Of a DNA stretch of 64,000 nt, positions 44,530-46,722 are shown in pieces. Position 1 is the stretch's first letter, and each line of letters starts with the position of its first letter. A program made the position numbers and the translations under genes. The notes below the pieces were generated by a model. That model ran no database searches and had not been told where the DNA came from. It saw only the letters and a program-made list of their open reading frames with translations. The stretch is taken from contig NZ_FNIR01000002.1 in NCBI RefSeq assembly GCF_900103975.1, forward strand, positions 62,001-126,000, in the 5' to 3' direction. The stretch comes from Klenkia soli (GTDB lineage Bacteria; Actinomycetota; Actinomycetes; Mycobacteriales; Geodermatophilaceae).

Positions 44530-44544
44530 TCTCCCACTTCAAGG

Positions 44545-44578
44545 TATAACCGCTGGTGGGGCTTGCGGCAAGACCCCC
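44545..44578 (+). promoter_or_regulatory. helR promoter -10 and rifamycin-associated-element-like palindrome
   Basis: TATAAC (44545-44550) is a good -10 hexamer. From 44558 the sequence GGGGCTTGCGGCAAGACCCC is an imperfect inverted repeat (GGGG.TTGC..GCAAG.CCCC) that resembles, as remembered, the rifamycin-associated element found before rifamycin-inactivating and helR genes of actinomycetes. It would overlap the transcription start (about 44557). This suggests rifamycin-inducible expression of the downstream gene. Confidence 0.72.
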
Positions 44579-44601
44579 GTGACGGCGGAGCATGCTCCGC
44601 C

Positions 44602-46722
44602 GTGCCGCACTTCGCCCTCCCCGCCAGCCGCTCCGCCAAGGCCGCCCCGGCCCTCGTCGCCGACGACGAGCAGTTCTTCGACACCCTCGCCGCCTGCCTC
44701 GCCGAGCAGGTCGCCGACCTCGAGCGGCGGCTGTCCGCCGAGCGCGCCGCGCCCGTCCGGCACGGGACGGCGGTCCTCGAGCGCGACCAGGAGGTGCACC
44801 GGCTCACCGCGCGGCTGCGCACCCTGCGCCGCTACGGCGTGGACCTCTGCCTGGGCCGCATCGTGACCCCCGACGCGGTGGTGCACGTCGGCCGGCTCGG
44901 GCTGACCGGCGCGGGGGGCGAGCGGCTGCTGGTCGACTGGCGCTCACCGGCCGCCGAGCCGTTCTTCGCCGCGAGCCACGCCGACCCGATGGGGCTGGTC
45001 AGCCGCCGTCGGTACCGGTGGACCCGCGGTCAGGTCACCGACTTCTGGGACGAGGTCTTCACCGACGACGGGCTGGCGGACAACGCCGCCCTCGACGACC
45101 ACTCCGCCTTCCTCGCCACGCTCGCCGGGGCCCGGTCGGCGCAGATGCGTGACGTGCTGGGCACCATCGCCGCCGACCAGGACGCGGTCGTGCGGGCCTC
45201 CGCCGCCGGACCGCTGGTGGTCGACGGCGGCCCCGGCACCGGCAAGACCGTCGTCGCGCTGCACCGCACGGCCTACCTGCTGCACGCCGACCCGCAGGTG
45301 GGGCAGCACCGCGGCGGCGTGCTGGTGGTCGGGCCGCACGAGCCCTACCTGGCCTACACCGCCGACGTGCTGCCCAGCCTGGGCGAGGATGGCGTGCGGA
45401 CGGCGACCCTGCGCGATCTGGTGCCCGAGGGGAGGGCGGCCGGCGTGGAGACCGACGCCGTGGTGGCCGCGCTCAAGGCCGGGCTGGACGTCGAGGCCGT
45501 GGTGGAGGCCGTGGTCGCGTTCTCCGAGGAGCCGCCGCGGACCGCCACCGTGCTGGACACCCCCTGGGGCGAGGTCCGGCTGGGCCGCGCCGAGTGGGCC
45601 GAGGCGTTCGGCGTGGTCGACCCCGGGACGCCGCACGACGACGCCCGCGACGAGGTGTGGGACGAACTGGTCCTGCTCGTGGCCGACCGTCTGGAGGAGG
45701 CCGAGCCGGACCGGCTGCGCCGCTGGCTGGCCCAGGACGCCGACCTGGTGCGGGCCTTCGACGTGGCCTGGCCGCTGCTGGACGCCGCCGACGTCGTCGC
45801 CGACCTGTGGTCGGTGCCGGCCCTGCTGCGCCGCTGCGCCCCGGGGCTGACCGCGGACGACGTCCGGGCGCTGCAGCGGACCGACCCGCGCGCCTGGACG
45901 ACGGCCGACCTGCCCCTGCTGGACGCCGCCCGGCGGCGGGTGGGCGACCCGGCGGCGTCCCGCCGGCGCCGGGCGACCGAGGCCGAGACCGCCGCCCAGC
46001 GCGCCCGGATGGACGACGTCGTGGCCGACCTGATCGCCGCCGACGACTCCGAGCTGAAGCTGATGCACAGCCTCCGGCAGGCCGACCTGCGCGACGCCCT
46101 GGTCGACCCCGGCGGGTGGGACGCCGCCGACCCCGACCGGCTGGCCGGCCCGTTCGCGCACGTCGTGGTCGACGAGGCGCAGGAGCTCAGCGACGCCGAG
46201 TGGGCGATGCTGCTGGCCCGGTGCCCGTCCCGCAGCCTCACCGTCGTCGGCGACCGTGCGCAGGCCCGGCACGGCTTCCGCGAGTCCTGGGTCGACCGGC
46301 TGGCCCGGGTGGGGCTGCCCGGCGCCCGGCTGGCGACGCTGGGGGTCAACTACCGCACGCCGTCGGAGGTCATGGCGGTCGCCGAGCCGGAGATCCGGGC
46401 CGCGGTGCCCGACGCCAACGTGCCGACGTCGATCCGCGCCTCGGGGGTGCCGGTGCGGTACGGGCCGGCGTCGTCGCTGCCCGACGTGCTCACCGGCTGG
46501 CTGGCCGCCCACGCCGACGGCGTCGCCTGCGTGGTCGGGGCACCCGCGCCGGTGGACTCGCCGCGGGTGCGGGCGCTGAGCCCGGTGCTGGCCAAGGGCC
46601 TGGAGTTCGACCTGGTCGTGCTGGTCGACCCGGCCGCGCTCGGCGACGGGGTCGAGGGCGCGGTGGACCGCTACGTGGCGATGACCCGGGCGACCGCGGA
46701 GCTGGTCGTGCTCACGACGTGA
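44602..46722 (+). CDS. helR: HelR-type RNA polymerase-associated helicase-like ATPase (rifamycin tolerance)
   Basis: 706 residues, UvrD/HelD-like superfamily 1. N-terminal coiled-coil arm (about 1-110: VADDEQFFDTLAACLAEQVADLERRL), Walker A VVDGGPGTGKTVVALHRTAYLL (about residue 215), Walker B HVVVDEAQELSDAEW, motif III VVGDRAQARHG, motif VI region RYVAMTRATAELVVLTT at the very end. HelR binds RNA polymerase, displaces rifamycins and recycles the enzyme. The start is GTG 44602 (PHFALPASRSAKAAPAL fits the family N-terminus); a 22-nt perfect palindrome (44582-44603) covers it. The 3' end overlaps the convergent phosphatase by 11 nt. Confidence 0.85.
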   Translation: MPHFALPASRSAKAAPALVADDEQFFDTLAACLAEQVADLERRLSAERAAPVRHGTAVLERDQEVHRLTARLRTLRRYGVDLCLGRIVTPDAVVHVGRLGLTGAGGERLLVDWRSPAAEPFFAASHADPMGLVSRRRYRWTRGQVTDFWDEVFTDDGLADNAALDDHSAFLATLAGARSAQMRDVLGTIAADQDAVVRASAAGPLVVDGGPGTGKTVVALHRTAYLLHADPQVGQHRGGVLVVGPHEPYLAYTADVLPSLGEDGVRTATLRDLVPEGRAAGVETDAVVAALKAGLDVEAVVEAVVAFSEEPPRTATVLDTPWGEVRLGRAEWAEAFGVVDPGTPHDDARDEVWDELVLLVADRLEEAEPDRLRRWLAQDADLVRAFDVAWPLLDAADVVADLWSVPALLRRCAPGLTADDVRALQRTDPRAWTTADLPLLDAARRRVGDPAASRRRRATEAETAAQRARMDDVVADLIAADDSELKLMHSLRQADLRDALVDPGGWDAADPDRLAGPFAHVVVDEAQELSDAEWAMLLARCPSRSLTVVGDRAQARHGFRESWVDRLARVGLPGARLATLGVNYRTPSEVMAVAEPEIRAAVPDANVPTSIRASGVPVRYGPASSLPDVLTGWLAAHADGVACVVGAPAPVDSPRVRALSPVLAKGLEFDLVVLVDPAALGDGVEGAVDRYVAMTRATAELVVLTT

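Follow-up and report, generated by a model that had tools for sequence, protein, structure and literature searches.

A rifamycin-associated element before helR in Klenkia soli, probably the common −35 core of two divergent promoters

The helR gene of Klenkia soli is probably driven by a rifamycin-associated element (RAE) together with a mirror-image pair of sigma70-type promoters, which have overlapping −35 elements and compete for RNA polymerase. On the sequence evidence, the most fitting reading of the RAE is a −35 core common to these two divergent promoters. The anatomy of the pair is well supported, and competition for polymerase is likely. That the drug is sensed by this competition and not by an RAE-bound regulator is speculative and is held here with more doubt than belief.

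The helR locus and its relatives

The window is the whole stretch of Klenkia soli DNA that was analysed, 64 kb in length, and all positions below refer to it. It contains the RAE, the 19-bp palindrome GGGGCTTGCGGCAAGACCC, at 44558–44576. This is the commonest form of the element, and the same core occurs, at 0–1 mismatch, in 63 of 112 Geodermatophilaceae genomes. The pattern GGGGCTTGCNNCAAGNCCC has a single match within the window, which is the RAE, with 0.06 expected by chance. In the 4.76-Mb genome, the RAE is the sole match at 0–1 mismatch and the remaining matches all have 3 mismatches; the search for further copies that was suggested in a preliminary description of this DNA found none at the closer level. 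What characterizes an RAE, a 19-bp palindrome GGGnCTTGCnGCAAGnCCC 5′ of a rifamycin-resistance gene, is found here. The preliminary description had placed the palindrome 7 nt past a TATAAC sequence and directly before a HelR-type gene, and both placements are correct: the RAE (+ strand) begins exactly 7 nt after TATAAC (44545–44550), and the gene that follows is named HelR by NCBIfam.

This gene (44602–46722, + strand) encodes a HelR-type RNA polymerase recycling/rifamycin-protection ATPase of 706 aa with a GTG start. The frame, which ends at 46722, is open from a TTG at 44563, inside the RAE. The start is likely the GTG at 44602, 44 nt past the first RAE base, because 11 relatives from the family have an in-frame GTG at the same place. 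The protein scores 1117.1 bits with the NCBIfam model NF041254 for HelR (cut-off 750; profile positions 1–706 of 706), whereas the M. smegmatis HelD model, HelD_MYCSM, gives 336 bits against a cut-off of 1051. These scores, together with the usual pairing of RAE and HelR in Geodermatophilaceae, bear out the earlier assignment to HelR and not to HelD. Among relatives of solved structure, M. smegmatis HelD is the best (6yxu, chain H; residues 39–704 against 25–709). The alignment is near full-length, includes the nucleotide-binding motif GGPGTGKT and covers the primary-channel loop region (toward the rifamycin pocket), which is weakly conserved and gapped.

The resistance region of the genome's own rpoB is susceptible-type, the usual positions being occupied by D, H and S, so that its RNA polymerase, judged by this sequence, is of the rifampicin-susceptible type. 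An RAE is needed for the rifampicin induction of a mycobacterial gene (PMC10719064). Given this requirement and the susceptible-type rpoB, rifamycin induction of helR is a fair prediction by analogy.

In Geodermatophilaceae, an RAE before helR is nothing unusual. HelR above cut-off is found in 69 of the 112 genomes, and about 52 of these 69 genes have an RAE directly 5′ (our own count from two tables). Within the genus, HelR above cut-off is absent from the other eight genomes. In one sister genome (G077, locus L254), an intact RAE precedes what is left of helR, a short remnant; in another (G080), the genes that flank helR are adjacent, with no helR between them. Both arrangements indicate that helR was probably lost in the sisters rather than newly gained in Klenkia soli. 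The antisense −10 element described below has decayed to CACGTC in G077, despite the intact RAE, in this one case. Separately, second RAE-like sites with a degenerate antisense hexamer lie before a rox-type gene in HelR-bearing genomes of the family (L255 and L258).

Mirrored hexamers around the palindrome

In aligned sites, the conserved flanks around RAEs extend far. Their geometry was followed in an independent set of at least 120 RAE sites, which came from named genomes scanned for the RAE by itself, with the flanks ignored; the first RAE base is index 0. Among the matches listed, 108 of 120 sites have a NAnnnT hexamer (A second, T sixth) at index 30 on both strands. At every other offset from 19 to 45, NAnnnT is present on both strands in 0 or 1 of these listed sites. 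The 12 listed sites that lack the two hexamers comprise four near misses and eight matches in unrelated bacteria or archaea, which look like chance. Among the near misses, L104 and L163 are shifted by one, and L188 and L201, before arr and rox, are looser. Like L255, L258, L265 and L266, these four have shifted or degenerate −10 elements, which counts against the promoter pair. Three matches in viral contigs, considered as possible RAEs in viruses, all lack the mirrored hexamers and were set aside as chance.

In Actinomycetota, the full 19-bp palindrome is invariant, including the outer GGG/CCC arms and C4/G14, and its TTGCnGCAA core is nearly invariant both there and in Lysobacteraceae. The putative sense −35 element, TTGCGG (44563–44568, + strand), is part of this core, and P2, a mapped promoter of M. 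smegmatis, has a −35 that overlaps the RAE (PMC10719064, review). Downstream of the RAE, and separated from TTGCGG by a 19-nt spacer, is the predicted sense −10 element GAGCAT (44588–44593, + strand), which is weak, having no T at −12. On the minus strand, the palindromic counterpart TTGCCG (44566–44571) would be the antisense −35 and overlaps the sense −35 by 3 bp. This is followed, again after 19 nt, by the candidate antisense −10 TACCTT (44541–44546, minus strand), which mirrors the sense −10 and has the form TAnnnT. The predicted antisense start nucleotide is the G at 44534 (minus strand), which is 95% conserved (forward C at index −24). Sense transcription is predicted to start at 44600–44602 (+ strand), 7–9 nt past the sense −10, and in relatives the GTG is at the same index. 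The helR mRNA would then be leaderless or near-leaderless.

The reading as a promoter pair rests on TAnnnT being the sigma70-type form of a −10 element, and on TTGC(G/C)G being a plausible −35 on each strand. We infer a working −10 role for both hexamers and mutual exclusion between the two promoters. As the sites, though related by descent, span several unrelated genes and two phyla, the shared geometry does not come from one gene lineage alone.

The preliminary description took TATAAC as a forward −10 box, which would make the RAE a downstream operator at the start of the transcript. TATAgC is indeed kept in most sites, but its base at −7 is C in 98% of 175 aligned sites, and several genomes drop the forward TATA while keeping the reverse-strand TAnnnT (as at L073, L076 and L078). 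In addition, a −35 inside the RAE, as mapped for M. smegmatis P2, puts the −10 of that promoter downstream (PMC10719064). The forward −10 is probably wrong, and an operator at the transcript start is very improbable. Instead, TATAAC, which shares two bases with TACCTT on the opposite strand, is best read as the overlapping complement of the antisense −10. The symmetry of the hexamers about the palindrome would also suit extra half-sites for a DNA-binding protein, having no promoter role. This is improbable, as the middle positions of NAnnnT are free, the two sides differ by polarity, and the sense hexamer agrees with the mapped M. smegmatis promoter (PMC10719064). Likewise, GGGGCUUGCGGCAAGACCCC is self-complementary and could form an RNA hairpin in the helR 5′ leader. 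Visual inspection of a few sites at first suggested an extension of this hairpin. Column shuffles over 175 sites left scattered pairs only: mirror complementarity of the flanks exceeds the shuffles at a few positions (z 2.7–4.7), with no continuous stem. As the predicted sense start lies beyond index 42, the RAE would be outside the sense transcript, and a leader hairpin is extremely improbable.

Two points bear on the RAE as a shared −35 core. The 19-nt spacer exceeds the usual 17–18, which counts against the promoter pair. So does a reported mycobacterial promoter, P1, which lies upstream of the RAE (PMC10719064) and for which the pair model has no need. As a side observation, a perfect 22-bp palindrome, ACGGCGGAGCATGCTCCGCCGT, is located at 44582–44603 and covers the sense −10 and the start codon; a portion of it is also present in the sister remnant (L254).

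Polarity, downstream genes and host range

The polarity of the pair was followed at the 42 sites, among the matches listed, where a HelR match begins no more than 600 nt away. In 40 of these 42, the sense hexamer has a first base other than T (C/GAnnnT, weak) and the antisense hexamer is TAnnnT (strong). Of the exceptions, one is a distant paralogue next to an RAE that faces the other way, toward rgt; the other is a site where the antisense hexamer is shifted by one. When the sites were oriented by polarity alone, the first gene was HelR, Rox (monooxygenase-type), Rph, Rgt or Arr in nearly all of the 108 listed. In nearly all sites among the matches listed, the stronger hexamer is directed away from the resistance gene. 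Representative downstream genes were named by NCBIfam, the Rox and Rgt examples and a partial Lysobacteraceae Rph being below the strict cut-offs. The module and its polarity are the same for rox, rph, rgt and arr as for helR, but the products of these four alter the drug, whereas HelR protects the polymerase.

A conserved divergent gene as the target of the antisense promoter was also considered and rejected. By a rough heuristic gene call at 86 sites, a gene end faces the module in 56 and a gene start in 30, and no general target was found across these sites.

The RAE module is not confined to Actinobacteria and is also present in Pseudomonadota. In Lysobacteraceae, the RAE and both hexamers (at most 2 mismatches) were found in 67 of 297 genomes, and a reversed-pattern control gave 0 matches in each of the 297. 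The genes linked to the module are arr, rgt, rox and rph, with the polarity seen in Actinomycetota; in Stenotrophomonas maltophilia, for example, it lies 79 nt 5′ of arr. On account of these sites, inducible rifamycin resistance of the RAE type probably extends past Actinobacteria. The 47 distinct canonical Lysobacteraceae sites were picked by their hexamers, so that only free positions are informative: here, the first base is C in 41 of the sense hexamers and T in all 47 of the antisense ones. The outer bases of the RAE arms vary in these picked sites, and TTGCnGCAA is nearly invariant. One rox subgroup (L236–L238, L240–L242, L244–L246, L250 and L252) has the antisense hexamer TAAGAT with a shorter spacer, a variant of the module whose sense hexamer in most cases lacks the A in second position.

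A search of 398 sampled Pseudomonadota genomes for the RAE by itself gave matches in 7, and five of the 7 were also in the Lysobacteraceae set. In the remaining two, and in two named alphaproteobacteria, the RAE is before rgt, rox or arr and the hexamers are looser. Outside Lysobacteraceae, the Pseudomonadota RAEs with looser −10 geometry include L188 (about 4969), L201 (3488), L265 and L266, before arr, rox and rgt. Three MAGs labelled Chloroflexi also carry RAEs, before rph (L167) or rox (L185 and L215), which may reflect transfer or mis-binning.

Possible modes of drug sensing through the element

In the proposed competition, the outward promoter (TACCTT) would be the stronger and the inward promoter, toward helR (GAGCAT), would be weak. 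The RNA polymerase footprints on the two promoters overlap and should bring them into competition. When no drug is present, most of the polymerase would go to the outward promoter and helR would stay low; a rifamycin would tip the balance toward the inward promoter, and the HelR then made would release polymerase from the drug.

The same promoter anatomy can be joined to a different sensing step. The RAE could be the operator of a rifamycin-responsive, dimeric regulator that sits over the shared −35s, where it would either repress or activate the divergent pair, so that the sensor is a protein. We give this somewhat less than an even chance. Sensing via the RAE in actinobacteria was called unresolved in a 2026 paper (PMC12802891), and authors in the field propose an unidentified transcription factor (PMC10719064, PMC12802891). 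Consistent with this, the 19-bp palindrome, with GGG/CCC arms that are invariant in Actinomycetota, is more than two −35 hexamers need. The arms and C4/G14 are left unexplained by the hexamers, which tells against competition as the sensing step; for this reason, protein binding to the palindrome is quite plausible, and the invariant arms favour such a protein as the rifamycin sensor. Moreover, simple competition by overlap would predict that an outward polymerase stalled by rifamycin also blocks the inward promoter, which counts against the model. Against a regulator, the arm positions are variable in Lysobacteraceae while TTGCnGCAA hardly is, and an unsystematic look noticed no recurrent regulator gene beside RAEs. 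At least five unrelated genes in Actinomycetota and Pseudomonadota are involved, and a regulator would need to be shared across phyla. This spread over phyla and gene types, with no obvious linked regulator, favours the polymerase as the sensor. The broader claim, that the RAE is a portable rifamycin sensor made of DNA and RNA polymerase only, which moved between phyla with its resistance gene and has no dedicated regulator, is unlikely.

In Streptomyces venezuelae and Mycobacteroides abscessus, also actinobacteria, the same 19-bp palindrome is 5′ of a HelR-type gene (PMC10719064, PMC8655204). The published description has one or two sense promoters and a palindrome that is probably bound by a factor; in the texts that were read, no antisense promoter is mentioned at RAE–helR in these two species. 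The searchable papers gave no account of a mirror-image promoter pair at an RAE. In B. subtilis, a helD-class gene has a promoter pair that, like the one proposed here, is weaker in the sense and stronger in the antisense direction, and that acts as a rifampicin alarm (PMC12802891). There, the promoters are convergent with 39 bp between the starts and no RAE, whereas the hexamers at Klenkia soli helR diverge and share the −35 region, and a convergent pair about 39 bp apart is absent. The Bacillus mechanism as described would not tolerate overlapping −35s, and shortening the distance between the helD promoters to overlap abolished induction (PMC12802891).

The fixed pair, with its conserved −10 elements, strong outward and weak toward the gene, allows a precise, cheap test of drug sensing through one or two bases that lie outside the palindrome. 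The module can also be used to locate candidate rifamycin-resistance genes. In Actinoplanes aureus (L116, 116–1794), it precedes an MFS efflux gene of the DHA2 type, whose product is a candidate pump for rifamycins.
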